This document shows, piece by piece, positions 43,978-62,547 of a stretch of DNA of 64,000 nt. The notes below the pieces were generated by a model that ran no database searches, was not told where the DNA came from, and worked only from the letters and a program-made list of their open reading frames with translations. The position numbers and the translations under genes were made by a program. The DNA is from Azospirillum lipoferum 4B (lineage in GTDB: Bacteria; Pseudomonadota; Alphaproteobacteria; Azospirillales; Azospirillaceae). The DNA is taken from positions 943,501 through 1,007,500 of the forward strand of contig NC_016585.1 in assembly GCF_000283655.1 (NCBI RefSeq), written 5' to 3'. Numbering within the stretch: the stretch's first letter is position 1; each line of letters starts with the position of its first letter.

Positions 43978-45180
43978 ATGGCGACGCCACGCAACAATCA
44001 TGGGGCGATCTTCACGGATCTGCTGGAGCTTGGCGCTCCCGGCGGCCTGACGGTCGCGGTGAAGGACTGCCTGGACATCGCCGGCTTTCCGACCCGTTGC
44101 GGATCGGCGGCGTTCGACCAGGCCCCGGCGGCGTCCCGCCATGCCGCGGTGGTGGATGCCCTGCTGGCGGCGGGCTGCCGGATCGTCGGCAAGACGACCA
44201 TGCACGAACTGGCCTATGGCATGACCGGCATCAACGCCCGCTTCGGCACCCCGGTCAATCCCGGCTGGCCCGAGCTGATTCCGGGCGGCTCCTCTTCGGG
44301 ATCGGCGGTGGCGGTCGCCGCCGGTCTGGTGGATTTCGCGGTCGGCACCGACACCGGCGGCTCCGTCCGCCAGCCGGCGGCCTGCTGCGGGGTGTTCGGC
44401 ATGAAGCCGACCTTCGGCCGCATCGACCGCCGGGGGGCCAGCCCCGCCGACAGCTCGCTCGACTGCATCGGTCCGCTGGCGCGCAGCATCGGCATGCTGG
44501 AGCGCGCGATGGTGGCGATGGATCCGGGCTTTCTGCCGGCCAAGGGGCTGGACCGCCCTCCCCGGCTCGCCCTGCTCCGCCATCCCGACGGTGCCGGGGC
44601 GGATCGCGAGTGGACCGGTCTCCTGCCCGCCCATGCCGCCGCCATGCCCTGGGTGGAGCTGCCGCTGCTCGACGACGCCTTCCGGGCCGGGATGACCGTC
44701 ATCGCCCGCGAAACCCACCGGGCATTCGGCCATCTCCTGTCCGAACCGGCGGCGCTGGGCGACGACGTGCGCGCCCGCCTGGATGCCGCCGGACGGGTCA
44801 CCGACGAGGAACTGGCACGGGCCGAGGATGTCAGGGCGCGCTTCACCGCCGAGGTGGACGCGCTGCTGGCCGACTGCGACGCCCTGGTCACGCCCGCCCT
44901 GCCGATGCCGCCGCCCGGCCTCGACGCGGCGCGGGATCCGAAGGCGGTCCTGCCGCTGACCCGTTTCCTGCGTCCCTTCAACCTTTCCGGACATCCGGCG
45001 ATCGTCCTGCCGGCTGTCGATGACCGCGGCCAGCCGCGCGGCATCCAGATCGTCGGCCGCAAATTCGAAGACCCCCAGCTCTGCGCCATTGCGGCCTGGC
45101 TCTGCATGGCCGAACCGAACTTCCAGGCGAAGGACCATTCCCATGACTCCACGCAACGCGTCGGCCGCGACGGCGCTTGA
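43978..45180 (+). CDS. iacH: Amidase signature family protein, IacH-like
   Basis: 400 residues with the amidase triad K29 (VAVKDCLD), cis-S105 (PGGSSSGSA) and nucleophile S129 (GTDTGGSVRQPA). Amidases named IacH occur in IAA degradation clusters, where a role on amide-type intermediates or IAA conjugates is suspected but not settled. First gene of the plus-strand operon iacHABCDEFG. Its end overlaps iacA by 38 nt. Shorter than the amidase at 28680 and not a close copy of it. Confidence 0.82.
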   Translation: MATPRNNHGAIFTDLLELGAPGGLTVAVKDCLDIAGFPTRCGSAAFDQAPAASRHAAVVDALLAAGCRIVGKTTMHELAYGMTGINARFGTPVNPGWPELIPGGSSSGSAVAVAAGLVDFAVGTDTGGSVRQPAACCGVFGMKPTFGRIDRRGASPADSSLDCIGPLARSIGMLERAMVAMDPGFLPAKGLDRPPRLALLRHPDGAGADREWTGLLPAHAAAMPWVELPLLDDAFRAGMTVIARETHRAFGHLLSEPAALGDDVRARLDAAGRVTDEELARAEDVRARFTAEVDALLADCDALVTPALPMPPPGLDAARDPKAVLPLTRFLRPFNLSGHPAIVLPAVDDRGQPRGIQIVGRKFEDPQLCAIAAWLCMAEPNFQAKDHSHDSTQRVGRDGA

Positions 45181-46279
45181 AGCCCTCAAATCGGAAATCC
45201 GCGCGCGGCGCGACGAGTTCCACAAGCTCCGCCACATTCCCGTCGACATCGTCCGCAAGTTCCAGGAGGCCGGCGTCTACCGCGCCTTCGTCCCGACCCG
45301 CTTCGGCGGCGACGGCTGCTCCCCGGCGGAGTTCTGCCGGCTGGTCGAGGAGATCTCGACCGCCGACGCCTCGGCCGGCTGGGTCGCCAGCTTCGGCGTC
45401 TCCGCCACCTATCTGGCGGCGCTGCCGACCGAAACCTACGCCGGCATCTACGGCGCCGATCCCGACACGGTCTTCGCCGGCGGGCTGTTCCCGCCGCAGC
45501 CGACGCGCAAGGTCGCGGGCGGGCTGGAGTTCTCCGGCCGCTGGCCCTGGTGCTCGGGCGTGATGGGTGCGTCGATCGTCGGCGGCGGGATCAAGGTGGA
45601 GGGGGAGTCCAACGCGCTGCTGCGCACCGCCGTCATGCCGCGCGCCAAGGTCACGGTGCATGAGACCTGGGACACCATCGGCCTGCGCGCCACCGGCAGC
45701 CACGAGGTGTCGGTCGAGAACATCGTGGTGCCGGAGGAATGGACCTTCATCCGCGGCGGCAAGCCGTCGATGGACGACGCGATCTTCCGCTATCCCGCCA
45801 TGGCGCTCGCCTCCCAGGTGCTGGCCGTGGTGGCTCTGGGCACGGCGCGGGCGGCCATCGACTGGGTGCGCCAGGACGCGCTCCGCCGCAACTCGATCAC
45901 CGGCGCGCCCAGCCCGGCGGCGCGCGGCTATGTCCAGATGGGCGTCGCCCAGGCCGAAGGACTGCTTCTCGGCGCGCGGGCGGCCTTCTACGACACCATC
46001 GAACAGGCTTGGGACCAGATGCTGACCAAGGGCGAGGTCGACCGGCCGATGCAGATCCGCCTGCGGCAGGTCGCTTCCAAGGCGGCGCAGGACGGGGCCG
46101 AGGCCGCGCGCATCGCCTTCGTGCTGGGCGGGTCGGATTCGATGAACAGCGGCCACCCGCTGGGGCGCTTCATGATCGACGCCGCCTGCGTGGCGCAGCA
46201 CGCCTTCATCGGCGCCGGAAGCTGGCAGATGGCCGGTGCCGCACTGCTCGACCAGCCGGCGGCCCCCGGATTCCCATGA
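45143..46279 (+). CDS. iacA: Acyl-CoA-dehydrogenase-like flavin monooxygenase, IacA
   Basis: 378 residues of the acyl-CoA dehydrogenase fold in its two-component monooxygenase (HsaA/group D) form: PTRFGGDGCSPAEFCRLVEE, FSGRWPWCSGV and TWDTIGLRATGSHEVSVEN. IacA hydroxylates the indole ring of IAA, using reduced flavin probably supplied by IacG. ATG 45143 has AAGGA upstream and lies inside the end of iacH. The gene order with iacB and the Rieske genes makes the assignment strong. Confidence 0.9.
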   Translation: MTPRNASAATALEALKSEIRARRDEFHKLRHIPVDIVRKFQEAGVYRAFVPTRFGGDGCSPAEFCRLVEEISTADASAGWVASFGVSATYLAALPTETYAGIYGADPDTVFAGGLFPPQPTRKVAGGLEFSGRWPWCSGVMGASIVGGGIKVEGESNALLRTAVMPRAKVTVHETWDTIGLRATGSHEVSVENIVVPEEWTFIRGGKPSMDDAIFRYPAMALASQVLAVVALGTARAAIDWVRQDALRRNSITGAPSPAARGYVQMGVAQAEGLLLGARAAFYDTIEQAWDQMLTKGEVDRPMQIRLRQVASKAAQDGAEAARIAFVLGGSDSMNSGHPLGRFMIDAACVAQHAFIGAGSWQMAGAALLDQPAAPGFP

Positions 46280-46328
46280 TCCGGCCGCTCCGGCTTTCAA
46301 ACGAACCTCAAGACTGGGAACCGACGCG

Positions 46329-46694
46329 ATGAGCGAGAAGAAGCCGATCCGCACCATGCTGTGCATCGCCGTGCAGCAGAATTTCTTCGACCTTCCCTTC
46401 GATCAGACCGGTCCGGTATGGACGGCGACGAAGCAGTTCCTGGCCACCGTCCACAAGATGCCGGGCGTCACCGTGCTGGGCACCTTCGACGACGACGAGA
46501 CGATGGTCGGCACCTCGCCCACCGGGTTCCCCTGGACCTGCTACCTGCTGGGCGATTTCCCCGACCGAGAAGCGGTGGTGGCGGCCTGCAACCTGTTCCG
46601 CACCATCGAGGTCGGCGACCAGGGACACCGGCTGTGGCGCTACATGCGCATCGAGGCGCGCATGGGCCGGCCGCTGCCGACGCCCGAACTCTGA
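46329..46694 (+). CDS. iacB: Small conserved protein, IacB-like
   Basis: 121 residues with no recognised domain; features include MLCIAVQQNFFDLPFDQTG, LGTFDDDETMVGTSPTGFPW and LWRYMRIEARMGRP. A small protein of this kind sits between iacA and iacC in IAA degradation clusters and is called IacB; its biochemical role is not well defined. Assigned by position and size. 50 nt after iacA and 52 nt before iacC. Confidence 0.78.
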   Translation: MSEKKPIRTMLCIAVQQNFFDLPFDQTGPVWTATKQFLATVHKMPGVTVLGTFDDDETMVGTSPTGFPWTCYLLGDFPDREAVVAACNLFRTIEVGDQGHRLWRYMRIEARMGRPLPTPEL

Positions 46695-46746
46695 TCCCCC
46701 GGCAAGCCGGCCGGCGAACCAAGCCGGCTAACCCAAAGGAGAACCC

Positions 46747-48039
46747 ATGTCTCTCGACCATAGCCCGGCCCACGATGGCCCGGCCCAACACAATCCAACC
46801 CGCCCGGAAGACCTTGTCGAGCATGACCGGGTCCAGACGCCGCTGTACGAGGATGCCGCCCTCTTCGACCAGGAGATGGAGAAGATCTTCGCCCACACCT
46901 GGGTGTTCGTCGCCCATGGTTCGGAAGTGCCCGAGAAGGGGTCCTTCATCCTGTCCTGGGTCGGCCAGCAGCCGGTCATCGTGGTGCGCGACCGCAAGGG
47001 CGACATCAACGTCCTGGTGAACCGCTGCCGCCACCGCGCCGCCACGGTGTGCGAGGTGAAGAAGGGCAAGACCTCGTCCTTCCAGTGCCCCTACCATGGC
47101 TGGGGCTACGGCCTCGACGGCTCGCTGCGCGGCGTCCCCTACCCCGAGCAGTATGGCAAGGACTTCGACAAGTCGACGCTGGGGATGAAGGCGCTTCGCG
47201 TCGACTCCTACCAGAACATGATCTTCGCCACGCTGGACGACGGCATCGAGCCGCTGGCCGAATTCCTCGGCCCGGCGAAGAAGTGGATCGACCTGTTCAT
47301 GAAGCAGGGCGGCGGCTATCCGGTCAAGGTGCTGGGCGAGCATCAGTTCACCGTGCCGATGAACTGGAAGATCCAGCTGGAGAACACCACCGACGCCTAC
47401 CACTTCCCGGTCGTCCACAAGTCCTTCATCCAGAGCCTGGACAAGGAGGCCGAGGCCACCTTCAACTTCTTCGACAAGGCGGGCTTCGTCGAGGATCTCG
47501 GCAACGGCCATTCGGTCGCCGTCATGATCCCTGAACTGATCGATCTCGACGAGAACCTCGACGATCCGATCCCGGAGCGCTTCGCGGAGCTGGCCCAGGC
47601 GCTGCGCGACGAAGGCTTCGACGAGCCGCGCGTGCGCAAGATCGTGCGCGCCACCGGCGGCGCCGGCTTCAACCTGAACCTGTTCCCGAACGTGTCGCTG
47701 TCGCTGGCCTTCTTCCGCGTCCTGCGGCCGGTCGGCGTCAAGGAGACCGCCATCCGCCATGTCTGCCTCGGCATGGACGGCGGACCGGTCGCCGCCAACC
47801 GGATGCGGATCCGCCTGCAGGAGCATTTCCAGGGTCCGATGGGCTTCGGCACCCCCGACGACGCCGAGGTGTGGGAGCGCGTCCAGCGCGGCACGCTGGG
47901 CGGCAAGGATCTGCCGATCCTGGTGAACCGCGGCCTCGTCGACGAGGTTCCGGGCGTCGACGGCCCGCGCGGCCATCTCAGCGCCGAAACCGGCATGCGC
48001 GCCTCCTATCAGATGTGGAAAAGGATGATGGCCCAATGA
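46747..48039 (+). CDS. iacC: Rieske ring-hydroxylating dioxygenase large subunit, IacC
   Basis: 430 residues. The Rieske [2Fe-2S] ligands are C94, H96 (NRCRHRA), C114 and H117 (QCPYHGWG). The mononuclear iron ligands are H219 and H224 with bridging D216 (ENTTDAYHFPVVHK). It is the catalytic component acting with IacD and reductase IacF on an oxidised IAA intermediate on the route to catechol. AGGAG precedes the ATG. The iacD start overlaps its stop by 4 nt. Confidence 0.93.
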   Translation: MSLDHSPAHDGPAQHNPTRPEDLVEHDRVQTPLYEDAALFDQEMEKIFAHTWVFVAHGSEVPEKGSFILSWVGQQPVIVVRDRKGDINVLVNRCRHRAATVCEVKKGKTSSFQCPYHGWGYGLDGSLRGVPYPEQYGKDFDKSTLGMKALRVDSYQNMIFATLDDGIEPLAEFLGPAKKWIDLFMKQGGGYPVKVLGEHQFTVPMNWKIQLENTTDAYHFPVVHKSFIQSLDKEAEATFNFFDKAGFVEDLGNGHSVAVMIPELIDLDENLDDPIPERFAELAQALRDEGFDEPRVRKIVRATGGAGFNLNLFPNVSLSLAFFRVLRPVGVKETAIRHVCLGMDGGPVAANRMRIRLQEHFQGPMGFGTPDDAEVWERVQRGTLGGKDLPILVNRGLVDEVPGVDGPRGHLSAETGMRASYQMWKRMMAQ

Positions 48040-48530
48040 GCGGGATCACGACCGTGGACAAGGATATCGATCTGCAGGAGCTGGCCGCCTTCGTCTGGCG
48101 GGAAGCCGATATTCTCGACCGCTGCGACTACGATGCCTGGCTGGCGCTGTGGACCGAAGACGGCCATTACATCGTCCCCATCGGCAAAGGCGAGAATTAC
48201 GAGGATCAGGTCAACGTCTGCTACGACGACGCCAAGATGCGCAAGATGCGCGTCGAGCGCTTCCAGCAGGGCTTCTCGATCTCGTCTGCGCCCCCCGCCG
48301 ATACGGTGCGCACCGTCTCCCGCTTCGTGCTTCAGGGCGCGACGGGTGACGAGATCGTCCTCAGCTGCGCCGAGCATGTGGTGGAGAACAAGTTCGGCCG
48401 CCAGCGGATCTATGCGGCGAACCTGACCTACACGCTGGTGCGCAGCGATGACGGCCTGCGGATCCGCAACAAGGTGGCGCGGTTGCTGAATTCGGATGGG
48501 GAGCTGACGGCGTTCAGCTATCTGTTCTGA
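48036..48530 (+). CDS. iacD: Ring-hydroxylating dioxygenase small subunit, IacD
   Basis: 164 residues of the beta-subunit (NTF2-like cone) family: LQELAAFVWREADILDRCDY, WLALWTEDGHYIVPIG and the C-terminal LRIRNKVARLLNSDGEL. It forms the alpha3beta3 oxygenase with IacC. ATGA overlap with iacC; its TGA shares one base with the iacE ATG. Confidence 0.92.
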   Translation: MSGITTVDKDIDLQELAAFVWREADILDRCDYDAWLALWTEDGHYIVPIGKGENYEDQVNVCYDDAKMRKMRVERFQQGFSISSAPPADTVRTVSRFVLQGATGDEIVLSCAEHVVENKFGRQRIYAANLTYTLVRSDDGLRIRNKVARLLNSDGELTAFSYLF

Positions 48531-49291
48531 TGGCGGCCCCGTCTCCCGGCGCGCTCCAGACGGCGGTCGTCACCGGCGGCGCCAGCGGCCTGGGCGCCCT
48601 CACCGCCCGCGCCCTGCATCGGGCCGGCTTCCGCGTCGTCGTCACCGACCTCGCCGCCGATGCCGCCGAAGCTCTGGCCCGCGACCTCGACCTCTCCGGC
48701 GAGACCGCGGCCTCCGGCACGCTCGACGTGGCGAAGCCTGAGGATTTCCAACGGATCCTCGACCGCTGCGTCGAGCGCTGGGGCTCGGTCGAGGTGCTCG
48801 TCAACAACGCCGCCCGCACCGAGGTCAAGCCGGTGCTGGAGATCGGCGTCGACGAGTTCAACGCGGTGATGGCGACCAATGCCGGCGGCACCTTCGCCGG
48901 CTGCCAGATCTTCGGCCGCCATTTCAAGCAGCGCGGCTACGGCCGCATCGTCAACATGGCGTCGCTGGCCGGCCAGAATGGCGGGACCGCCACGGGGGCG
49001 CATTACGCCGCCTCCAAGGGGGCGATCCTGACGCTGACCAAGATCTTCGCCCGCGATCTCGCTCCCTTCGGCGTCACCTGCAACGCCATCGCTCCGGGTC
49101 CGATGGACACGCCGATGGTCCGCTCGGTGCTGACGCCGGAGCGGCTGCCGGCGGCGCTGGCGGCGATCCCGGTCGGCCAGCTCGGCGATCCCGACTTCGT
49201 GGCCGACCTCGTCACCCTGCTGGCCCGGCCCGAATCCGGCTTCGTCACCGGGGCCTGCTGGGACGTCAACGGGGGGATTTACATGCGATGA
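48530..49291 (+). CDS. iacE: Short-chain dehydrogenase/reductase, IacE
   Basis: 253 residues, classical SDR: cofactor motif TGGASGLG near residue 15, NNA (VLVNNAART), and catalytic Tyr-x3-Lys in HYAASKGAI. IacE is proposed to act in the conversion of 2-hydroxy-IAA to dioxindole-acetic acid together with IacA and IacB. Shares one base with iacD and overlaps iacF by 4 nt. Confidence 0.9.
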   Translation: MAAPSPGALQTAVVTGGASGLGALTARALHRAGFRVVVTDLAADAAEALARDLDLSGETAASGTLDVAKPEDFQRILDRCVERWGSVEVLVNNAARTEVKPVLEIGVDEFNAVMATNAGGTFAGCQIFGRHFKQRGYGRIVNMASLAGQNGGTATGAHYAASKGAILTLTKIFARDLAPFGVTCNAIAPGPMDTPMVRSVLTPERLPAALAAIPVGQLGDPDFVADLVTLLARPESGFVTGACWDVNGGIYMR

Positions 49292-50280
49292 GCGACGACA
49301 CCGACAGCAAGACCCGCATCCTGACCGTCATCGAACGGATCGAGGAGCCGGGCGACATCCTGCGGGTCAAGCTGGCGGCGCCCGACGGCGCCGCCCTGCC
49401 GGCCTTCACCGCGGGCGCGCACATCGACATCCGCCTGAGTGCCGGCGACACCGGCCTGTGGCGGCAGTATTCGCTCTGCTCGGACCCGGCCCAGGCCCAG
49501 GGTCAGGCCGGTCATTACGAGATCGGCGTCCTGCGCGACCCCAACAGCCGCGGCGGTTCCGTCGCCTTCCACCGCCTCGCGGCGCCGGGCGGCAGCTTCA
49601 CCGTCGAAGGCCCGCGCAACCATTTCGAACTGGCGGAGGACGCCCGCCGCACCGTGCTGTTCGGCGGCGGCATCGGCATCACGCCGATGCTGGCGATGGC
49701 CTGGCGGCTGCACGCCCTGAACCGGGACTTCACGCTGCATTACTGCACCCGGTCGGAGCGCGCCACCGCCTTCCGCGACACCATCGCCACAGCCCCCTGG
49801 GGCCATCGCGTGGTGTTCCATCACGACGATCTGCCGCAAGCGCAGCGCCTCGACCCCGCCCGCGACCTGCCGGAGCCGGACGCCGGGACCCACCTCTATG
49901 TCTGCGGCCCCCAGGGCTTCATGGATTGGGTGATCGGCGCCGCAAAGACCGCCGGCCATGCCCCGGCCAACATCCACCGGGAGTATTTCTCGGCCCAGGT
50001 CGACAGCACCGGCGAGGGGTTCGAGGTGACGGCGAGCCGGTCCGGCGTGACCGTGAGCGTCGGTCCCGAAGACACCATCGCCAAGGCGCTCGCCCGCGCC
50101 GGCATCTCCATCCCGGTGAAGTGCGAGGAGGGCGTCTGCGGCACCTGCGTGACCGACGTGCTCGACGGCACCCCCGATCACCGCGACCAGTTCCTCACCG
50201 ACGAGGAGCGCGCCGAGGGCAGCATGATCTGCGTCTGCTGCTCGCGCGCCCGGTCGAAATCCCTCGTTCTCGATATCTGA
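49288..50280 (+). CDS. iacF: Ferredoxin reductase with C-terminal [2Fe-2S] domain, IacF
   Basis: 330 residues: FAD-binding barrel (LWRQYSLCSDP), NAD-binding domain (LFGGGIGITPMLAMAW, YVCGPQGFMDW) and a C-terminal plant-type [2Fe-2S] cluster (CEEGVCGTCV with a later CVCC). It passes electrons from NADH to the Rieske oxygenase IacCD, replacing separate ferredoxin and reductase. This vanillate-O-demethylase-reductase-like layout is standard for the family. 12 nt before iacG. Confidence 0.92.
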   Translation: MSDDTDSKTRILTVIERIEEPGDILRVKLAAPDGAALPAFTAGAHIDIRLSAGDTGLWRQYSLCSDPAQAQGQAGHYEIGVLRDPNSRGGSVAFHRLAAPGGSFTVEGPRNHFELAEDARRTVLFGGGIGITPMLAMAWRLHALNRDFTLHYCTRSERATAFRDTIATAPWGHRVVFHHDDLPQAQRLDPARDLPEPDAGTHLYVCGPQGFMDWVIGAAKTAGHAPANIHREYFSAQVDSTGEGFEVTASRSGVTVSVGPEDTIAKALARAGISIPVKCEEGVCGTCVTDVLDGTPDHRDQFLTDEERAEGSMICVCCSRARSKSLVLDI

Positions 50281-50292
50281 GAGGAAGCGATC

Positions 50293-50802
50293 ATGTCCGC
50301 AACCGCCGCCCCGCTGCCGCCCGAAACCCAGGCCTTCCGCGACGGCATGAGCCGTCTGGGCGCCGCCGTCAATCTGGTGACGACCGACGGCCCCGCCGGC
50401 CGCCACGGCCTGACCGTCTCCGCCGTCTGTTCGGTGACCGACACGCCGCCGACGCTGCTCGTCTGCATCAACGCCAACGCTTTCGCCCATGACGCCTTCC
50501 TGGAGAACGGCGTGCTCTGCGTCAATGTGCTGAACGCCGATCACCAGGAACTGTCACGCTCCTTCGCCAAATGGACCGGCGAGGACCGCTTCGCCGGCGG
50601 CGTCTGGACGCGGGACGGAACCGGTGCCCCGGTGCTGTCCGGCGCCTCGGCCTCCTTCGACTGCCGGATCGTCGACCACCAGCGCAAGGGCACCCACACC
50701 GTGCTGTTCTGCGAGGTCCAGGCGACGGCGCTTTGCGACGGCCCCGGCGGCGGGCTGATCTGGTTCAACCGGGGCTTCCACACGCTCGGGACGTCCGCTT
50801 GA
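50293..50802 (+). CDS. iacG: Flavin reductase, IacG
   Basis: 169 residues, small NAD(P)H:flavin reductase family (FRDGMSRLGAAVNLVTTDGP, GLTVSAVCSVTDTPPTLLVC, GVLCVNVLNADHQELSRSFA). Supplies reduced flavin to IacA. Last plus-strand gene of the iac operon, convergent with iacR (16 nt apart). Confidence 0.92.
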   Translation: MSATAAPLPPETQAFRDGMSRLGAAVNLVTTDGPAGRHGLTVSAVCSVTDTPPTLLVCINANAFAHDAFLENGVLCVNVLNADHQELSRSFAKWTGEDRFAGGVWTRDGTGAPVLSGASASFDCRIVDHQRKGTHTVLFCEVQATALCDGPGGGLIWFNRGFHTLGTSA

Positions 50803-51307: not shown

Positions 51308-51776
51308 GCTGCGCCCTTCATCCGGCTGCGGCGGGACGGACGGGCTGCCAGCCGGTCCGGCCACGCTCGACACAACCATGTGGAGATGACGGGTGAATAG
51401 CGGAAAAGCTGCCGCATCACAAGACGGTTGGCAGCCGGACAGCTTGCCGCATGCAAAGCAGACGAGCGATATCTGGTGCCAACGTGAAAAACCATAAAAG
51501 AATAAATGCGTCTTCACATATTCTGGAAAAGATATTTTCAGTTTCCGGGAAGATAGCCCGACAATTACAGCGGATATAACTTAAAGATATGGCTATAATC
51601 CGCAGCACCATCAATCGATGACATGCCTGGATTTGCAGGCACCGCGTCCGATGCAACAGCTGTACTCGGACCCGACGCGGCTTCACGGATCGTGAGCATG
51701 CATGGCGCACGCAGGGCGGCCGGCCCTGGCCCCGCCCTTGCCCAAACAAGAAAATCACCCGAACGGAGACAGCTTC
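51308..51776. promoter_or_regulatory. Intergenic region iacR / outer-membrane channel
   Basis: 469 bp, with an AT-rich stretch 51480-51610. It holds an imperfect inverted repeat, GCGGATATA (51570-51578) against TATAATCCGC (51594-51603). The second arm contains a perfect -10-like TATAAT, but no good -35 is evident. It could be the IacR operator or the promoter of the channel gene. No gene seen. Confidence 0.4.
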
Positions 51777-53204
51777 ATGGTCACCGCCCAGACATTCGCC
51801 GGCACATTCGCCGGCACATGCACCGTCCGGCCGAGCGACACCCCCCGCCCCCATCGGCCGCTGCGGAGACGGATGCTCGCCGGCACGGCCCTGCTCGCGA
51901 TGCCGCTCCTCGCGATGTCCACCACCGCCCACGCGGACGTCACGCTCCATGAGCAGAACGGCGTCACCCTCGAAGGCGGCTTCACCGCCGGCATCGGTGC
52001 GGTCGCCGTGTCCAACGCCAATCTCGGCGCCGGGGTGGTCACACCGGACGGCAAGGTGCAGAAGGACCGCAGTTGGGCCGAAGGCTACATCGCCCCCAGC
52101 CTGAAGCTGACCTATGCCACCGAAAGCGCCGGCACGCTCTACAGCGGCGTGCGTGCGGTGTCGGGCGGAACAATCGGCGACGGCGATGCCGGCGGCTTCA
52201 CCCAGGGCCGCCAGGGCCGCACCGACCTCGATAACCTCTATGTCGGCTGGAGGAGCGGCGACCTGCTGTCCAGCCTGGGCAAGGATGCCGTCGACCTCGC
52301 CTATGGCCGGCAGAACTTCATGATCGGCGACGGCTTCATCATCGGCGACGGCACGCTGGATTCGCGGCGCCAGGGGACTTACTGGCTGGGGCCGCGCCGC
52401 GGCTGGAACACCGGCACCGCCGTCGCCAAATTCGACATCGCGCCGGTCCATGCCGACCTGTTCCGCCTGAAGAGCGACAAGAACAGCAACACCGACGTCA
52501 TTTATGGCGGCAATCTGGAATGGCGCTTCGGGGCGGAGGGCAAAAGCTCGCTCGGCGCCGCCTACATGCGCATCGACCAGTCGAACCTGCCGACCCGCAA
52601 GGGCATGGACATCTACAATCTCCGCGCCCTCGGCGTCACCGTCCCGTCGGTTCCGGGGCTGACCCTGTCGGCGGAATATGTGAAGCAGCACAACAGCCGC
52701 GCCGGTGCCGAGCTCGATGCCTCGGCCTGGTACGGCGAGGCCGGCTACAGCTTCGCCGACGTCGCCTGGACGCCGCGTGTCGGCTACCGCTACAGCCAGT
52801 TCAGCGGCGACAAGCCCGGCACGGCCAAGAGCGAGGCGTTCGATCCGCTCCACATGGCCTTCCCGCGCTGGGGCACCTGGCTTCAGGGCGAGATCAACGG
52901 CGAATATTTCCCGACCTCCAACAGCAACGTGAAGGTCCACAACGTCCAGTTCGCCGTCCAGCCGGCCGAGACGGTCACGCTGACCGCCCTGCTGTACGAC
53001 TTCCGCTTCGACCGCAAGCCGGCCGGCGTCACCAGCGGCCATGTCGGCAACGAGATCAACCTCGTGGTCGACTGGGGGGCGACGGAAAATCTGCTGGTCA
53101 GCGGCGTGGCCGGGCACTTCTTCGCCGGGGACGGCGGCAAGCAGTTCCTGCGTGGCAACAAGGACAGCACGGTCTTCGCGGTGATGGCGACCCTGACCTA
53201 TTGA
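51777..53204 (+). CDS. Outer-membrane beta-barrel channel, alginate-export-like family
   Basis: 475 residues. A long N-terminal export signal (about residues 1-55, hydrophobic core MLAGTALLAMPLLAMSTTAHA) is followed by a beta-barrel. Barrel features include GRTDLDNLYVGWRSGDLL, LAYGRQNFMIGDGFIIGDGT and a final strand STVFAVMATLTY. This resembles AlgE-type/alginate-export porins, which often serve aromatic uptake. The N-terminus before the signal core contains a duplicated TFAG from a 12-nt tandem repeat. GGAG at 51765 supports the ATG. Between iacR and the ABC importer, so probably the outer-membrane entry for the same substrate. Confidence 0.8.
   Translation: MVTAQTFAGTFAGTCTVRPSDTPRPHRPLRRRMLAGTALLAMPLLAMSTTAHADVTLHEQNGVTLEGGFTAGIGAVAVSNANLGAGVVTPDGKVQKDRSWAEGYIAPSLKLTYATESAGTLYSGVRAVSGGTIGDGDAGGFTQGRQGRTDLDNLYVGWRSGDLLSSLGKDAVDLAYGRQNFMIGDGFIIGDGTLDSRRQGTYWLGPRRGWNTGTAVAKFDIAPVHADLFRLKSDKNSNTDVIYGGNLEWRFGAEGKSSLGAAYMRIDQSNLPTRKGMDIYNLRALGVTVPSVPGLTLSAEYVKQHNSRAGAELDASAWYGEAGYSFADVAWTPRVGYRYSQFSGDKPGTAKSEAFDPLHMAFPRWGTWLQGEINGEYFPTSNSNVKVHNVQFAVQPAETVTLTALLYDFRFDRKPAGVTSGHVGNEINLVVDWGATENLLVSGVAGHFFAGDGGKQFLRGNKDSTVFAVMATLTY
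51792..51815. repeat. 12-nt tandem repeat in the porin leader
   Basis: ACATTCGCCGGC is present twice in tandem, giving TFAGTFAGT at about residues 6-14, ahead of the signal-peptide core. In-frame and probably neutral. Confidence 0.6.
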
Positions 53205-53212
53205 CGGTCGGT

Positions 53213-53240
53213 TGCGGACGGGTGGATGCACCCGTCCGCA
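53213..53240 (+). terminator. Terminator after the outer-membrane channel gene
   Basis: A perfect 12-bp stem TGCGGACGGGTG / CACCCGTCCGCA with a 4-nt loop GATG, 8 nt after the stop and followed by TTGTGTCTT. Good intrinsic terminator; it also separates the convergent ABC ATPase gene. Confidence 0.8.
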
Positions 53241-53289
53241 TTGTGTCTTGCCGCAGTTTTCTTTGCCGCGCTAAACCACGGCGTCGGCC

Positions 53290-54615
53290 CTACATGCCGA
53301 GATAGGCGCGGCGGACCTCGTCGTTCTTCAGCAGGTCCCGGCCGCGTCCCTGCAAGGCGATCCGCCCCGATTCCATGACATAGGCGTGATCGGCGATGGA
53401 CAGTGCGGCCCGCGCATTCTGTTCCACCAGCAGGATGGTCATGCCCGCGTCCCGCAGCATGCGGATGATGCGGAAGATGTCCGCGACGATCAGCGGCGCC
53501 AGCCCCATGCTCGGTTCGTCCAGCAACAGAAGCCTGGGCTTGCCCATCAGGGCGCGGCCCAGGGCCACCATCTGCTGCTGGCCGCCCGACAGCACCCCGG
53601 CAGGCTGGTCGCGTCGCTCGCGCAGCACCGGGAACAGGGTGAACACCTCCTCCAGCCCCTCCGCGATCTCCGCCGCCGGCCGGGTGTGGGCGCCCATGCG
53701 CAGATTGTCTTCGATGGTCATGGGGGCGAAGACATGCCGCCCCTCCGGCACCTGACAGATGCCGGCGCGCACCCGCGCATCGGCGCTGGCGCCGGTGATC
53801 GGCTTGCCCTGCATCAGGACGGATCCGGCGGATATCGGCTGGACGCCGGAAATGCAGCGCAGCAAAGTGGTCTTTCCCGCACCGTTGGCGCCGACCAGGG
53901 CCACCAGCTGCCCCGGCGGCACCTGGATGGACACGCCGTGCAGGACCTGGATGCGGCTGTAGGCGCTGGTCACCCCATCGACCGTCAGCAGCGCATCCCC
54001 CGCCGCCGACGGTTTCGGCGCGATGGGCGCATGGTCGGCCTTCGCCCCGAATCCTTCGGGCGAGGGCAGCAGCTGCGTGATCCGTGCGCGCAGCAGGGCC
54101 ACCGTCTCCGCCGGGTCGACATGGTCGAGCGGGTCGCTGCGGGCGGCGAAGGCGGCGTCGATTTCCGTCCAGTCCGCCGGGGTCAGCACTGCGCCGGCCA
54201 AGGGAAAGCACTCCTCCTCCTCGACCCGCAGATGCTCGTCCAGCTCCCGCCGGAAGCGGGCGATTTCGGCGGCAAGCTCCGTCAGGTTCTTCGCATCATG
54301 GCGATTCGGGTTGCTGGCAAGATGGCGCAGGCGCGCGAGATGGCGGCGCGCCTCGTGGTGGTCCCGGTCCAGCCGGTCGAGCATCGCCCCGCCGCGGTCG
54401 CTGCGCACACGCATCCGCGCAAACAGCAGATCGCTTTCGCGGGCATGGTGGCAATGGTCGGCGTAGGCCTCGAAATAATCGGCGATCAGCTCGACGGTGT
54501 GGAGCCCGGCCTCGTCCGCCGAGCCGGCGGCGAACCGGTCGCCCAGCACCGCCAGGGCTCCGGCGACCAGACGCATGTTGCGGTGTTCGGCCGCGATGAT
54601 GGCAAGCGCGCGCAT
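53290..54615 (-). CDS. LivF-type ABC ATPase with an N-terminal hemerythrin-like domain
   Basis: 441 residues, about 200 longer than a normal LivF. Residues about 1-165 are a helical HHE/hemerythrin-like domain with the expected ligand pattern: H11 (EHRNM), H56-x3-E60 (HHARESD), H86/H87 (RDHHEAR) and H128-x3-E132 (EHLRVEEEE). After a Pro/Ala linker, residues about 208-441 are a complete LivF cassette with Walker A GANGAGKTT (242-250), signature LSGGQQQ and Walker B LLLLDEPSMGLAP. It drives the adjacent branched-chain-amino-acid/aromatic-type importer. The fusion suggests uptake gated by oxygen, nitric oxide or iron state, but that is inference. Fifth gene of the operon, 5 nt after LivG. Confidence 0.9.
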   Translation of the reverse strand: MRALAIIAAEHRNMRLVAGALAVLGDRFAAGSADEAGLHTVELIADYFEAYADHCHHARESDLLFARMRVRSDRGGAMLDRLDRDHHEARRHLARLRHLASNPNRHDAKNLTELAAEIARFRRELDEHLRVEEEECFPLAGAVLTPADWTEIDAAFAARSDPLDHVDPAETVALLRARITQLLPSPEGFGAKADHAPIAPKPSAAGDALLTVDGVTSAYSRIQVLHGVSIQVPPGQLVALVGANGAGKTTLLRCISGVQPISAGSVLMQGKPITGASADARVRAGICQVPEGRHVFAPMTIEDNLRMGAHTRPAAEIAEGLEEVFTLFPVLRERRDQPAGVLSGGQQQMVALGRALMGKPRLLLLDEPSMGLAPLIVADIFRIIRMLRDAGMTILLVEQNARAALSIADHAYVMESGRIALQGRGRDLLKNDEVRRAYLGM

Positions 54616-54620
54616 GGTCG

Positions 54621-55385
54621 TCAGTCCTCCTCGGCGTCGGCGCCCAGATAGGCGGCGATCACCTCCGGGTTTTCGCGGATTTCGGTGGGGGTTCCCTCGG
54701 CCAGCCGGCGGCCGTAGTTCAGGACCAGGATGCGGTCGGACACGGTCATCACCAGCTTCATGTCATGTTCCACCACCACCACGGTCAGCCCCGACCGCGC
54801 CAGATCCGCCACCAGGGTCTGGATCCCGTGGGTTTCGGTGTGGTTCAGCCCCGCCGCCGGTTCGTCCAGGAACAGGATCTTCGGGTCCGACGCCAGGGCG
54901 CGGGCGATCTCCAGCCGCTTCAGGGCGCCATAGGGCATCGCGGCGGCGTCGGCCTTGATGAAGGCGCCGCAGCCCACCCGCTCCATCAGGGCGGCGGCCC
55001 GTTCGCGGCATGCCCTGTCGGCGCGCGACAGGCCCGGCCAGCGGAACATTCCGGCGAACATGGAGGAATTGAGCGTCAGATGGGCGCCGACCATCACATT
55101 GTCGATGGCGCTGAGATTCCTGCAGATCTGCAGGTTCTGGAAGGTGCGGCTCATGCCGCGCCTCGCCAATTGGTCGGGTGCGGCGCCGCCGATCTCCTGC
55201 CCCTCGAAACCGATCGAGCCGGAGGTCGGCGTGTAGAGGCCGGAGATCAGGTTGAACAGCGTCGTCTTGCCGGCGCCGTTCGGCCCGATCACCGAATAGA
55301 CGCAGCCCTTGGGAATGGTGAAGCTCACATCCTGAACCGCGTGAACCCCGCCGAACCGTTTGGACAGGTTGGCGACCGTCAGCAT
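54621..55385 (-). CDS. LivG-type ABC ATPase
   Basis: 254 residues, single cassette: Walker A GPNGAGKTT near 35, RTFQNLQICRNLSAIDNVMVG typical of LivG, Walker B ILFLDEPAAGLNHTE. The signature region reads MPYGALKRLEIARAL: YGALKR stands where LivG usually has YGxQRR. ATG 55385 overlaps the LivM stop by 7 nt. Second ATPase of the importer. Confidence 0.92.
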   Translation of the reverse strand: MLTVANLSKRFGGVHAVQDVSFTIPKGCVYSVIGPNGAGKTTLFNLISGLYTPTSGSIGFEGQEIGGAAPDQLARRGMSRTFQNLQICRNLSAIDNVMVGAHLTLNSSMFAGMFRWPGLSRADRACRERAAALMERVGCGAFIKADAAAMPYGALKRLEIARALASDPKILFLDEPAAGLNHTETHGIQTLVADLARSGLTVVVVEHDMKLVMTVSDRILVLNYGRRLAEGTPTEIRENPEVIAAYLGADAEED

Positions 55386-56425
55386 GCCGCACCCCCCTTG
55401 CCCGCGAAGCGGACGGAGCGCAGGCGCGTCGCCAGGCTGGGAACGACGCCGCGCGGCAGGAAGATCATCGTCACCACCAGGATCACCCCGAACAGCACCG
55501 AATCCCAGCCCTCGTAGCCGGCCAGGACCTGCGGCAGCAGGCCCATGACCACCGCGCCGAAGATCGATCCATAGATCGACGCCATGCCGCCCAGCACCAC
55601 GACGATGACGAGTTCCACCGATTGCATGATGCCGGCGATGCCGGGGTTTATGTATCCGGAGTAATGGGCCGACAGGCTGCCGAGCATCGCCGAGACGGTG
55701 GCGGAGAGGACGAACACGCCGATCTTGCGGCGTCGGACGTCGATGCCCGCGACCGACGCGGCGGTCTCCGAGCCGTGCAGCGCCTGCAGCGCCCGTCCGG
55801 CGGGGGAATCGATGAGGTTCTGCGCCAGGATCACGGTGCCGATCAGCAGGCCGCCGAACAGCCAGTACCATTGCCGTTCGCCCGACAGCGTCAGACCGAA
55901 CAGGCTGAAGCCGTCCACCGGCATGCCGTCGGGACCGCCGGTCCAGGCGGCCTCGTTGGCGAGGACGATGGAGATGATGATGCCCAGACCCAGGGTGGCC
56001 ATGGCGAGATAATGGCCACGCAGGCGCAGGATGACCCGCGCCACGCCCCAGGCGATCACAGCCGTCAGCAGGGCAGCGGCCAGCAGGGCCGGCAGCGGCG
56101 CCCAGCCGAAATGCGTGGTCAGCACGGCGGAGCCATAGGCGCCCAGCCCGAAGAAGCCGGCATGGCCCAGGCTGATCTGGCCGGTGTAGCCCATCAGCAG
56201 GTTGAGGGCGATGGCGTTCACCGCCAGGATGGCGATGCGGATCGCCACGTCGAAATAGAAGGCGTTTGGCAGAAGCAGCGGCAACAGCGCCACGACGGCG
56301 GCCAGCGCCGCCAGCCCGACGACGCGCCCCGTGCCGGTGCGTCCCGCCGCGGAACGCTTCAAGTCGGATTGCCTCAAGTCGGATTGCCGGTCTCGCGGCA
56401 ACGATCGATCGGGATGAAGGGTCAT
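55379..56425 (-). CDS. LivM-type ABC permease
   Basis: 348 residues with about nine membrane segments and the LivM landmark ILAVNAIALNLLMGYTGQIS, then LGHAGFFGLGAYGSAVL. Inner-membrane channel subunit of a branched-chain-amino-acid-family importer, a family also used for aromatic acids. It starts 3 nt after the LivH stop. Confidence 0.92.
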   Translation of the reverse strand: MTLHPDRSLPRDRQSDLRQSDLKRSAAGRTGTGRVVGLAALAAVVALLPLLLPNAFYFDVAIRIAILAVNAIALNLLMGYTGQISLGHAGFFGLGAYGSAVLTTHFGWAPLPALLAAALLTAVIAWGVARVILRLRGHYLAMATLGLGIIISIVLANEAAWTGGPDGMPVDGFSLFGLTLSGERQWYWLFGGLLIGTVILAQNLIDSPAGRALQALHGSETAASVAGIDVRRRKIGVFVLSATVSAMLGSLSAHYSGYINPGIAGIMQSVELVIVVVLGGMASIYGSIFGAVVMGLLPQVLAGYEGWDSVLFGVILVVTMIFLPRGVVPSLATRLRSVRFAGKGGAAC

Positions 56426-56428
56426 GGG

Positions 56429-57304
56429 TCAGATCCGATCCGTCGGTTTGGCGCCCAGCAGCCCTTGCGGACGCAGCACCAGGACGATGAAGACCAGGAC
56501 GAACGGCACCGCGTCCTTGTAGGCGGACGACACATAGCCGGCGGTCAATGCCTCGATCAGGCCCAGGAACAGGCCGCCGAACACCGCGCCCGGCCCGCTG
56601 CCCAGACCGCCCAGCGTCGCCGCCACGAAGCCCTTCAACCCAAGCATCGTGCCGGTGTCGTATGCCACCGTCGAGATCGGGGCGATCAGAACGCCGCCGA
56701 CGGCGCCGATCACCGCCGACAGCGCGAAGCTGAGCGTCAGCACCCGGCGGACGTCCACGCCGACCAGCTGGGCCGCCAGCCGGTCATAGGATGTCGCCAG
56801 CACGCTCTTGCCGATGCGGGTGCGGCCGAAGAACAGGTTCAGCCCCAGCACGATCAGCGCACCGACCGCCAGCACCCACAGGCTTTGCGGCAGGATGGTC
56901 GCGCCCAGCAGCGCCAGGGGCGCCTCGCCGGAAAAATGCGGCAGGGCGTGCGGTCTCTTGCCCAGCAGGATCTCCGTCAGCCCCCGCAGGATCATCGACA
57001 CGCCGATGGTGATGATGATGATGCTGGCGACCTCTGCGTCGCGGGCGGGGGCGACCGCCAGCCGCTCCACCAGACCGCCGACGAGCCCGGCGATCATCAC
57101 CCCGGCGACGCAGGCCAACGGCAGCGGCACGCCCGCCGCCGACAGGAAGGAGGCCGCCATGCCGCCGACCATGATGAACTCGCCCTGGGCGAAATTGATC
57201 ACGCCGCTGGCGTTGTAGATCATCGAAAAGCCGAGCGCCGACAGCATGTACATGGCGCCCAGCGTCATGCCCGACAGAATGAATTGAAGAAGCTCTGGCA
57301 GCAT
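56429..57304 (-). CDS. LivH-type ABC permease
   Basis: 291 residues, about eight membrane segments, with LivH hallmarks YNASGVINFAQGEFIMVGG and GGLGSGPGAVFGGLFLGLIE. Partner permease of LivM. It follows the binding-protein gene by 97 nt. Confidence 0.92.
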   Translation of the reverse strand: MLPELLQFILSGMTLGAMYMLSALGFSMIYNASGVINFAQGEFIMVGGMAASFLSAAGVPLPLACVAGVMIAGLVGGLVERLAVAPARDAEVASIIIITIGVSMILRGLTEILLGKRPHALPHFSGEAPLALLGATILPQSLWVLAVGALIVLGLNLFFGRTRIGKSVLATSYDRLAAQLVGVDVRRVLTLSFALSAVIGAVGGVLIAPISTVAYDTGTMLGLKGFVAATLGGLGSGPGAVFGGLFLGLIEALTAGYVSSAYKDAVPFVLVFIVLVLRPQGLLGAKPTDRI

Positions 57305-57401
57305 GGGGTCCTTTTCCTCTCGGCGGAGTGCCGGCGCCTTCCCTCACGCCGCGCCCGGAGGGGCGCAGTGGAACGGGGCGGGAGCGGACGAAGAAGACGG
57401 C

Positions 57402-58553
57402 TCACTCGGCAATCGTGAATTTGCCGTTCCTGACCGTGACGATCTTCAATGCGGAGATGTCGAGGCCCAGATGGTCCTGGGGCGACATGTTGATCATGCC
57501 GGACGTTCCGGGCAGGCCCGCCGTGTTCTCGATGAAATCCCGGACCTTGGCCTTGTCGACGCTCTTGGCCAGCGTCACCGCATTGACCCAGATGTGCCAG
57601 GCGTCGCGGGCATAGGCGCCGAAGGACGACACGTCCGTCTTGTAACGGGATTCATATTCCCTGACGTAGTCGACCGACAGTTTCTTCAGCGGATCGCTGT
57701 CCGGCAATTCGGCGGCGACCATCAGCACCGGCGCCGGCAGGCGCACCCCTTCGGCCGCCGGCCCCGCCAGGCGGATATACTCCCGCGTCGCCACCCCGGA
57801 GGTCTGGTAATGCGGCAGGTCGATGCCGAGCTGCGCGATGTTCTTGGTCACGACCACCGCGCCCTGGCCGAAGGTCACGACGAACAGGGCCTGGACGCCG
57901 GGGGTGTTCTTGATCTTCGCCAGCTGGGTGGTGACGTCGGTGTCCTTCGGGTTGAAGGTTTCATCCACCGCCACCGTGATGCCGACCTTCTGGGCGACAT
58001 TCAGCATCTCCTTGCGGGCGGACTGGCCGAAGCCGCTGGTGTCCGACAGCATGGCGATGGACTGGTAGCCCCTGGCCTTCATGTCGAGCATCACCCGCTG
58101 GCCGACCATGCGGTCGTGATGGGCGGGCTTGAACATCCAGCGCTTGACCGGCTCGACGATCACCAGGGCGCCGGCCAGGGAGATGAACGGGATCTGCGCC
58201 CGTTCGATCAGCGGGTACATCGCCATGCTGGCGCCGGTGGTGGTGCCGCCGATCAGCATGTCCACCTTGTCGTCCTCGATCAGGCGCTTGACCAGGACGT
58301 TGGCCTTGCCCGGCTCGCTGCCGTCATCGTAATGGACCAGCTCGACCGGGCGTCCCAGCAGACCTCCGGCCTTGTTGGTCTGGTCGACCATCATTTCCAG
58401 GGTCTTCAATTCCGGATCGCCCAGGCTCGACGCGCCGCCGGTCAGGGACAGGACCGCCCCGACCTTCACCGGGTCCGCGGCCGGCGCCGGCGCGGCCGAC
58501 GCGCCGATCGCCAGCGCGCAGACGACGCCCACCATCATATTGAAAAAGCGCAT
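57402..58553 (-). CDS. Periplasmic substrate-binding protein of the LivK/aromatic-acid type
   Basis: 383 residues: signal peptide (FFNMMVGVVCALAIGASAAP), then a type-I periplasmic binding fold (VKVGAVLSLTGGASSLGDPE, DDKVDMLIGGTTTGASMAMY). It captures the substrate for the Liv-type importer. The ligand pocket cannot be read from sequence; the family includes aromatic-acid binders. The location between iac and cat genes makes IAA or a related aromatic acid the leading guess. GGGAGA precedes ATG 58553. First gene of the five-gene operon. Confidence 0.9.
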   Translation of the reverse strand: MRFFNMMVGVVCALAIGASAAPAPAADPVKVGAVLSLTGGASSLGDPELKTLEMMVDQTNKAGGLLGRPVELVHYDDGSEPGKANVLVKRLIEDDKVDMLIGGTTTGASMAMYPLIERAQIPFISLAGALVIVEPVKRWMFKPAHHDRMVGQRVMLDMKARGYQSIAMLSDTSGFGQSARKEMLNVAQKVGITVAVDETFNPKDTDVTTQLAKIKNTPGVQALFVVTFGQGAVVVTKNIAQLGIDLPHYQTSGVATREYIRLAGPAAEGVRLPAPVLMVAAELPDSDPLKKLSVDYVREYESRYKTDVSSFGAYARDAWHIWVNAVTLAKSVDKAKVRDFIENTAGLPGTSGMINMSPQDHLGLDISALKIVTVRNGKFTIAE

Positions 58554-59010
58554 GGATCTCTTGTCTCCCTGAAGGATGCCCAAAGGCCCTGTTCTTTCAT
58601 GCAAGATCCTTCGGCGAGGGCCCCCGATGGAGAGCCGTCCAACCGCGGATCGCGTCGTTGCAGCTTGTCCGAAGCCTTATCTGCGGCAGGCTCGGCTGCA
58701 TTTTCTTGATGATGCGGGTAACGCCCGATCCTCCGCATCGAGGCGGAAGGATTTTCATTTTCCGAACCGGCACTGCCGCCTGTCAAGCATTCGGGTTTTA
58801 AAATTATGGGAACCAGTTTTTCTCAATCTGCAAAAATACAGTCCGGCTTCCATCCTTCATGATCATGGCGGAGCGTCCCATCGCGCCACGCATACCTGTT
58901 GGGTATGAAAACATGATCCAATCGGTTTTGGACACGAACCGTCCTTTAAAAGGATGATCTGCCCCGGAAACTTTGACGCTGCGCATACGCACAGATTTGG
59001 GGATGTTCGC
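58554..59010. promoter_or_regulatory. Divergent region between the importer operon and catB
   Basis: 457 bp, AT-richer around 58790-58960. It contains the ATAC-N7-GTAT operator-like site (58892-58906) and TTTTAAAATTATGGG near 58797. It should hold the promoters of both the importer operon and catBCA. No gene seen. Confidence 0.6.
58892..58906. promoter_or_regulatory. ATAC-N7-GTAT site, CatM/BenM-type operator
   Basis: ATACCTGTTGGGTAT is a perfect dyad (ATACC-N5-GGTAT) and fits the ATAC-N7-GTAT recognition sequence described for BenM/CatM LysR regulators. It is 104 bp before the catB start; the catR-like gene at 61675 encodes a protein of that family. Only one perfect copy is seen. Confidence 0.65.
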
Positions 59011-60484: not shown

Positions 60485-60555
60485 CGGTCCTGATCGTAGT
60501 CCCGCTCCTCAGCCCCCCTCACGCCACCAACCAACAAGTTCAAAGGGAGACTCCC

Positions 60556-61476
60556 ATGCAGGCCAAGGAACTCGACGCGCTGCTGGCGCGCTTCACCCAG
60601 GTCACGCCCGGCAAGACGCCCAACCCGCGGGTCAAGGCGATCGTCGACCGCATCGTCCGCGACCTGTTCGTCACCATGAACGAGTTCGACGTCACCCCGG
60701 ACGAATTCTGGACCGCCTGCAACTACCTGACCGAGCTGGGCAAGAACAACGAGGCCGGGCTGCTGGCTCCAGGCCTTGGCTTCGAGCATTTCCTCGACCT
60801 GCTGGTCGAGGAGCGTGAGAGCGCCGCCGGCCTGAACGAGAACGGCACCCCGCGCACCATCGAAGGCCCGCTGTATGTGGTCGGCGCCCCGGTGCATCAG
60901 GGCAGCGCCCGCATCGACGACGGGCTGGACACCGAGGCGGAACCGCTGTTCATGTCGGGTGTCGTGCGCGATGCCTCGGGCAAGCCGGTCCCCCATGCGG
61001 TGGTCGAGGTCTGGCATGCCAATTCCAAGGGCAACTATTCGATCTTCGACAGCTCGCAGACGCCATTCAACAACCGCGGCACCATCCAGACCGGCGCCGA
61101 CGGGCGTTATTCCTTCCAGTCGATCATGCCGTCGGGCTATGCCTGCCCGCCGGGCAGCAGCACGCTGCAGCTGCTGGAGCTGCTGGGCCGCCACGGCGCC
61201 CGTCCCGCCCACATCCACTTCTTCGTCAGCGCCCCCGGGTATCGCAAGCTGACGACGCAGATCAACATCATGGGCGATCCGCTGATCGACGACGATTTCG
61301 CCTTCGCCACCCGCGACGGTCTGGTGCCCGACGTCCGCCGCATCGACGATCCGGCGGCGATGGAAGCCCGCGGCGTGAACCGTCCCTTCGCCGAGATCGC
61401 CTTCGACTTCCGTCTGGTCGAGGCCCGCGACGGCCTGCCGACCGATGTGGTCGAACGCCCGCGCGTCTCCGCCTGA
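60556..61476 (+). CDS. catA: Catechol 1,2-dioxygenase
   Basis: 306 residues with Fe(III) ligands Y161 (NYSIFD), Y195 (SGYACP), H219 and H221 (RPAHIHFF). It opens catechol to cis,cis-muconate, the product that feeds CatB. The N-terminal helical domain and length are typical. Third gene of catBCA, 71 nt after catC. The likely catechol source is the iac pathway 10-18 kb upstream. Confidence 0.94.
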   Translation: MQAKELDALLARFTQVTPGKTPNPRVKAIVDRIVRDLFVTMNEFDVTPDEFWTACNYLTELGKNNEAGLLAPGLGFEHFLDLLVEERESAAGLNENGTPRTIEGPLYVVGAPVHQGSARIDDGLDTEAEPLFMSGVVRDASGKPVPHAVVEVWHANSKGNYSIFDSSQTPFNNRGTIQTGADGRYSFQSIMPSGYACPPGSSTLQLLELLGRHGARPAHIHFFVSAPGYRKLTTQINIMGDPLIDDDFAFATRDGLVPDVRRIDDPAAMEARGVNRPFAEIAFDFRLVEARDGLPTDVVERPRVSA

Positions 61477-61674: not shown

Positions 61675-62547
61675 ATGGAACTGCGGCACCTGCGCTATTT
61701 CCAGATGGTCGCGGCGGAGCGCAGCTTCACCCGCGCGGCGGAGCGGCTCCACATCGCGCAACCCCCGCTCAGCCGGCAAATCCGCCAGCTCGAAGAGGAG
61801 CTGGGGACCGAACTGCTGGTGCGGGGATCGCGCCCGCTCGAACTGACCGAGGCCGGGCGCCTGCTCTACGAGCATGCCATCCAGGTGCTGGACCGGGTCG
61901 ACGATATCCATTGGAGCCTGCGGGCGCTGGGCGGGTCGCGCCGCACCGTCTATCCCATCGGGCTGGTCGGCTCGATCCTCTACGGCTCGCTTCCCCGCGT
62001 GCTGCGCCGGTTCCGGGCATCGCGCCCCGACCTCGACGTCCGCTTGATCGAAATGACGACGCTGGAACAGCTGCCGGCGCTGCGCGACCACCGCATCGCC
62101 GTCGGCTTCGGCCGGCTGCCCTTTCAGGAACCCGGCATCGTCCAGCAGGTTCTGCATGACGAGCCGCTGGTGGCGGCGATGTCCTGCGAGTGTCCGCTGG
62201 CCGCCGGGACCGGCCCCGTGCCCCTGGCCGCCCTGGTCCGCGAGACCCTGCTGGTCTATCCCCGCAAGCCCCGGCCGAGCTATGCCGATCAGGTGCTGGC
62301 GCTGTTCCGCGACCGCGGCCTTCTGCCCAACGCGGTGGTGGAGGCGGGGGAACTCCAGACCGCGCTGGGGCTGGTGGCCTGCGGGGTCGGTTTGTGTCTG
62401 GTGCCGGAATCCGCCTCCGGGTCGCGCGGCGACCTGATTTACCGGCCGATTGCCGAAAGGGCGATCACCTCGCCGATGATCGTCAGCACGCGGGCCGGCG
62501 ACGACAACGAGGCGACCGCCGCCCTTCTCGCCATGGTGACGGAGTGA
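61675..62547 (+). CDS. catR: LysR family regulator, CatR/BenM-like
   Basis: 290 residues beginning MELRHLRYFQMVAAERSFTR, with IAQPPLSRQIRQLEEELGTE and LLVRGSRPLELTEAGRLLYE, close to the CatM/BenM/CatR group that responds to cis,cis-muconate. It lies downstream of catA on the same strand rather than divergent from catB, which is less common. It probably binds the ATAC-N7-GTAT site at 58892. Confidence 0.86.
   Translation: MELRHLRYFQMVAAERSFTRAAERLHIAQPPLSRQIRQLEEELGTELLVRGSRPLELTEAGRLLYEHAIQVLDRVDDIHWSLRALGGSRRTVYPIGLVGSILYGSLPRVLRRFRASRPDLDVRLIEMTTLEQLPALRDHRIAVGFGRLPFQEPGIVQQVLHDEPLVAAMSCECPLAAGTGPVPLAALVRETLLVYPRKPRPSYADQVLALFRDRGLLPNAVVEAGELQTALGLVACGVGLCLVPESASGSRGDLIYRPIAERAITSPMIVSTRAGDDNEATAALLAMVTE

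Follow-up and report, generated by a model that had tools for sequence, protein, structure and literature searches.

The window analysed here is a 64,000-nucleotide stretch of Azospirillum lipoferum 4B (contig NC_016585.1, positions 943,501 to 1,007,500), and its gene at 53290..54615 joins a hemerythrin-like domain to the ATPase of a Liv-type importer. The gene lies on the minus strand (54615 to 53290) and forms a single ATG-started frame of 441 residues, which encodes, from the N- to the C-terminus, a complete hemerythrin/HHE unit, a disordered linker and a complete Liv-type ATP-binding cassette (ABC) ATPase. A first-pass annotation had placed a hemerythrin–LivF fusion at these coordinates, in one continuous frame, and all of this stands. 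The parts of the gene are as follows:

54046..54615, minus strand: hemerythrin/HHE unit, residues 1-190, with the ligands H11, H56, E60, H86, H128 and E132
54001..54066, minus strand: disordered linker, residues 184-205, with AlphaFold2 per-residue confidence (pLDDT) below 50; its start lies within the hemerythrin unit as delimited here
53290..53994, minus strand: LivF-type ATP-binding cassette, residues 208-441 and the stop codon, matched by ABC_tran, the LivF model and 1ji0
54625..54632, minus strand: Shine-Dalgarno-like GAGGAGGA, read from the sequence, 9 nt before the ATG and within the end of livG

Residues 4-140 match Pfam Hemerythrin (PF01814) at E 1.8e-15, with 58 bits against a cut-off of 25.3, and residues 225-369 match ABC_tran at E 7.8e-30; neither match can be put down to chance. 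The protein carries the four-helix-bundle hemerythrin fold, and its ABC cassette, together with the LivJHMGF operon, identifies it as the ATPase of a Liv-type importer (hydrophobic amino acid uptake transporter, HAAT). At 259 bits, it falls short of the 441-bit cut-off of the LivF equivalog NF008626, and it is also under that of the UrtE model; the best PDB match of the ATPase half is 1ji0. The first-pass annotation allotted about 165 residues to the region before the cassette. The hemerythrin domain does lie there, but we extend the unit to about 190 residues, since the free-standing relatives share its C-terminal part. The claim that there is no internal ribosome site has to be softened: no in-frame ATG, GTG or TTG occurs between residues 172 and 215, but GTG172 is preceded by GGCGGAG, at a spacing of 3 nt only, and an internal start yielding a free ATPase looks unlikely.

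The search for the fusion covered Pseudomonadota; beyond this phylum, contigs were scanned with short exact peptides, which pick up close relatives only. Full-length matches (query residues 1-441) top the listing in 3 of the 45 genomes of the window genus. Identity to the window protein is 98% in G001, 88% in A. griseum (G032) and 50% in G011. A gammaproteobacterial family (f91, mostly its genus g169) accounts for 63 fused places, spread over 62 of its 151 genomes, part of the matches starting only at residue 34-43, and the fusion is present in two families beyond the window genus and f91. It was found in 4/369 genomes of the class-wide samples (three families), in 1/385 of a sample of G001's class and in 4/398 of an even sample across the phylum; the class-wide and phylum samples overlap, G001 and G233 recurring. 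PF01814 is above its cut-off in all six other fused proteins scanned. Because the same fusion recurs in independent assemblies and in several families, a sequencing or annotation artefact joining two genes, already doubted in the first-pass annotation, is rejected and keeps practically no probability.

With six duplicate rows removed, the ligand alignment contained 38 distinct fused proteins and 16 free-standing ones. The window protein has all six HHE ligands. The first-pass annotation had named these residues together with H87, and all are present; H86 is the conserved ligand, whereas H87 varies among relatives. Conservation in homologues is divided: the six ligands are complete in 16 of 16 free-standing relatives and in 8 of the fused proteins (the window, G001, A. 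griseum, G011, G600, G831, G719 and G837), but broken in the other 30. Those 30 all keep H11, H128 and E132, and 29 of them keep H56. The non-ligand residues Y47 and W149 are invariant in 12/12 ligand-complete rows. Only the ligand-complete group can plausibly have a normal di-iron site, and the retention of all six ligands in the window lineage, five other fused genomes and every free-standing protein argues for selection for the metal site in these lineages. One genome, G600, has two hemerythrin–LivF fusions, one ligand-complete and one ligand-broken (L198:4012-5310, L210).

Hemerythrins and bacterial hemerythrin sensors have the motif H-HxxxE-HxxxH-HxxxxD, as given in the review PMC9388753. 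The window protein departs from this canonical O2-binding motif, with R90 in place of the histidine and E133 in place of the aspartate. The HxE-HxxxxD motif of the P1B-5 type is likewise not found: the protein is an ABC ATPase, its near relatives have E, D or G at residue 88, and HxxxxD is absent.

For three Azospirillum pairs, the ratio of nonsynonymous to synonymous substitution rates (dN/dS) of the domain lies at 0.07-0.15, and for two ligand-broken g169 pairs it is about 0.03; a third g169 pair is saturated and gave only a pN/pS of 0.22. Since purifying selection is strong in the measured pairs, the domain has some function in both ligand groups.

The domain has nevertheless been lost in frame. 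Two genomes, A. lipoferum Sp59b and Azospirillum sp. 412522, match at 90-98% in the operon and its neighbours (one small gene at 89-90%), but their subunit has MRALAII directly joined to the linker and the ATPase; the first seven hemerythrin residues are left, and about 190 have been removed in frame. In the g169 genomes G542, G566 and G629, the fused N-terminal peptide MSEQHTEMAPAQ..SEQA joins the ATPase directly, and these rows nest among the fused rows in a quick LivF tree (Shimodaira–Hasegawa-like approximate likelihood-ratio support, 84-85). The ATPases of the two domain-deleted lineages are still constrained, with dN/dS of 0.10-0.17 and 0.01-0.04. A search at E 1e-6 detected no other member of this hemerythrin family in any of the five domain-deleted genomes, for two of which the completeness is 93 and 96%, and the same search returned at least one hemerythrin copy in 5/5 fused control genomes. 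The two lineages therefore had fused ancestors, and their importer persists without the domain. At a further locus (L138, in G288), an unfused LivF with an odd N-terminal extension is nested among the fused ones; a third deletion scar is possible there, but not established.

Genes for free-standing relatives are often found directly downstream of LivGF-like genes. In the window genus, all 16 distinct proteins start at their own ATG, at most one residue earlier. For six of them (L103, L105, L106, L109, L116, L119), a LivF-like gene ends within 20 nt of the hemerythrin ATG or overlaps it, with a LivG-like gene upstream; these LivF-like neighbours are 39-49% identical to the window ATPase, and an ATGA overlap is seen. 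Three more (L124, L125, L126), viewed over a wider stretch, lie within a PaaX–Liv cluster. Around the other seven there is no LivF match within 1.5 kb; in one of these, G023, a LivF gene lies about 9.5 kb off on the same strand (contig C120). Twelve loci in other families were viewed, with part of their genes scanned. One (L255) lies behind Liv genes and a CoA-transferase gene, one (L256) is beside cbb3 oxidase genes (ccoNOP, ccoG) on the opposite strand, three (L259, L260, L261) adjoin copper-type P-ATPase genes on the same strand, and the remaining seven had no informative neighbour among the genes scanned. The LivF-like neighbours favour a partnership with the importer; they do not separate the rival explanations of the domain discussed below.

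In the hemerythrin tree, from which near-copies and some free-standing rows were left out, a single branch groups all 24 fused rows, with support of 72/75 and recovery in 66% of 200 bootstrap trees. In the LivF tree, from which the g169 duplicates and near-copies at loci L026-L100 were dropped, the fused rows are scattered on a weak backbone, and the starred branches force at least three changes between unfused and the rest; the approximately unbiased test nevertheless does not reject a tree in which fused and deleted rows form a single clade (p-AU 0.144). As against several independent origins, a single ancient fusion that was handed down or spread and was lost in some lineages is the simplest reading, although it is not proven.

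The remainder of the importer operon and the aerobic genes around it comprise:

54621..55385, minus strand: LivG-type ATPase, the partner subunit, 62-63% identical beside the fused subunit in G011 and three g169 genomes (L121, L146-L148)
55379..56425, minus strand: LivM-type permease, operon conserved
56429..57304, minus strand: LivH-type permease, operon conserved
57402..58604, minus strand: LivJ-type substrate-binding protein, like aromatic-acid binding proteins, with PDB matches 3sg0, 4dqd, 7ylt and 3tx6 (an entry group including 4fb4)
45143..50802, plus strand: ring-oxidation genes for a flavin monooxygenase-like protein, a Rieske dioxygenase, a short-chain dehydrogenase/reductase (SDR), a ferredoxin reductase and a flavin reductase, from NCBIfam and PDB matches
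60550..61476, plus strand: intradiol (catechol-type) dioxygenase, Pfam PF00775 and PF04444

The operon faces the ring-oxidation genes just listed (for the Rieske dioxygenase and the flavin monooxygenase-like protein, both reductases and the SDR), together with intradiol dioxygenases. The NCBIfam matches shown for the ring-oxidation genes are all below their cut-offs, and two of these genes have PDB matches; the set resembles indole-3-acetate (IAA) catabolism, and the iac name would apply to it. An aerobic context of arylacetate/IAA type, for which the first-pass annotation named IAA and catechol enzymes, is supported. Its statement that the neighbouring enzymes all consume oxygen is wrong, since the SDR, amidase and muconate-cycloisomerase-like enzymes consume no O2. 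The PDB entries matched by the LivJ-type protein are taken to be aromatic-acid binders, partly on the strength of the Variovorax paper PMC10374108, in which the protein IadK2 is reported to bind IAA at the nanomolar level and 4fb4 is given as the homologue with bound caffeic acid; we infer that 7ylt is IadK2. Because of the binding-protein matches and the neighbouring genes, the substrate is probably an arylacetate-type aromatic acid, here indole-3-acetate.

A Paa-marker scan of seven other fused loci, which left out L147 and L148, found phenylacetate genes or PaaX in four (L121, L146, L195, L196) and a Rieske ferredoxin in L198; none was seen in L202, and the contig of L201 is too short. The three g169 domain-deleted loci have PaaX-like genes and PaaE. 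A tie of the fusion to IAA genes only is rejected, as fused operons elsewhere lie in phenylacetate-type clusters. The gene order itself varies. In the window (51702-58604), in G001 and in A. lipoferum, the Liv operon and the oxidation genes are convergent with a porin gene between them, and in A. griseum (L021:4116-9326) they are codirectional, with no porin match between. A LysR gene beside the intradiol dioxygenase (window 61675-62547) is 96% identical in G001, the nearest genome, where it lies on the opposite strand (L122:15913-16782), so this spot has undergone a local inversion.

In our best reading, the LivF-type ATPase of a LivJHMGF importer gained at its N-terminus, through a flexible linker, an entire cytosolic hemerythrin protein of the HHE kind. 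The domain would bind a non-haem iron pair and may serve as an accessory O2/redox-responsive (or NO-responsive) module on the arylacetate importer ATPase, tuning uptake to the capacity for the O2-dependent pathway. Transport itself would proceed without the domain, and in the ligand-broken group the module, lacking a normal di-iron site, would still serve to contact a partner. We favour this accessory module, tentatively and short of an even chance, because the linkage with Liv importers and aerobic genes is repeated, the metal site is intact and the domain is under selection. Several points weigh against it. The motif, H-HxxxE-H-HxxxE, is of the HHE type and not the O2-carrier type; in the ligand-broken fused proteins, H86 is replaced by Tyr in 30/30 and E60 is kept in just 4/30; the AlphaFold2 model (predicted TM-score, pTM, 0.56) leaves the relative domain orientation unpredicted; the substrate is itself inferred; and its loss in five genomes means that the domain is not strictly required. 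Some of the evidence also tells against a stronger version, close to the O2 or NO gating of ATP hydrolysis suggested in the first-pass annotation. There, the fused di-iron HHE domain would sense O2, redox state or NO and directly gate the ATPase, phenylacetate/auxin uptake would be licensed by oxygen, and the deleted or broken lineages would be natural ungated or re-purposed versions. Such a gate is doubtful, if still a serious candidate: the two lineages with the domain deleted in frame and the ATPase conserved count against a strict gate, the motif is not that of the hemerythrin sensors, O2/NO gating is weak as a general rule because 30 of the 38 fused proteins are ligand-broken, and gating by di-iron cannot be what the domain does in general because the ligand-broken domains are, in two pairs, even more constrained.

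The uniform Tyr at position 86, maintained with a dN/dS of about 0.03 in the two pairs, and the invariant Y47 and W149 would also suit a four-helix bundle that binds a partner, be it the livG product, the permease, a regulator or a pathway enzyme, with the metal structural or absent. This is a serious rival, if somewhat unlikely, since the lineages that keep all six ligands point to selection for the metal site there. Local handling of O2, iron or radicals, in which the domain would be a membrane-tethered buffer or scavenger close to the oxygenases and leave the ATPase unregulated, is likewise a serious rival, if somewhat unlikely. The free-standing relatives beside the cbb3 oxidase or copper-ATPase genes speak for it, as does the suggestion in PMC6449761 that HHE proteins of COG3945 store or scavenge O2 in benzoate clusters, but fusion to an ATPase is unnecessary for such a role, and the ligand-broken group is still conserved. 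Finally, a passenger domain without function would agree with the two independent in-frame losses as the end of a drift, but it is very improbable: it is disfavoured by the selection test, with low domain dN/dS in the measured pairs, and the domain is present in 62 of the 151 genomes of one family.

P1B-5 ATPases already offer a precedent: these transport ATPases are fused to a soluble hemerythrin-like domain, the role of which is described as unclear, O2/redox versus iron sensing (PMC9388753, section 8). These are P-type metal pumps with a C-terminal domain and the motif H-HxxxE-HxE-HxxxxD, whereas here an ABC importer subunit carries an N-terminal domain with a different ligand set. On an ABC importer, such a domain is apparently unreported: no report was found in the open-access literature, searched mostly as titles and starts of abstracts, with subscription journals mostly outside its scope. 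DcrH, Bhr-DGC and Bhr-HD-GYP, as outlined in PMC9388753, also fuse a hemerythrin domain to an output domain, but their output is chemotaxis or cyclic di-GMP turnover, and the window domain lacks the canonical HxxxH-HxxxxD ligands. The free-standing HHE proteins NMB1532 (2p0n), PF0695 (3cax) and the Rv2633c homolog (6q09) have the same fold as the window domain, with detectable sequence similarity for 2p0n (E 8e-6). To our knowledge, none of these three, nor any COG3945 HHE protein, is fused to a transporter. The COG3945 proteins share the aromatic-catabolism context, in the benzoate clusters treated in PMC6449761. The likeness to LivF/UrtE ATPases extends over the whole ATPase half and the operon layout, but the window protein scores below their cut-offs, and neither model includes a hemerythrin domain. 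The Variovorax binding protein IadK2, with the ABC transporter that it serves (PMC10374108), resembles the window in setting an aromatic-acid-type binding protein beside Rieske IAA chemistry, while the main text of that paper uses the word hemerythrin 0 times.

Similar operons provide three kinds of natural allele: fusions whose ligand set is complete, fusions in which it is broken, and clean deletions of the domain. With these, what a hemerythrin-type domain does on a transport ATPase, a question that section 8 of PMC9388753 leaves open for the P1B-5 pumps, becomes directly testable. If the domain senses O2 or redox state, aromatic uptake could be controlled post-translationally at the ATPase, including the removal of the plant hormone IAA in the root zone.
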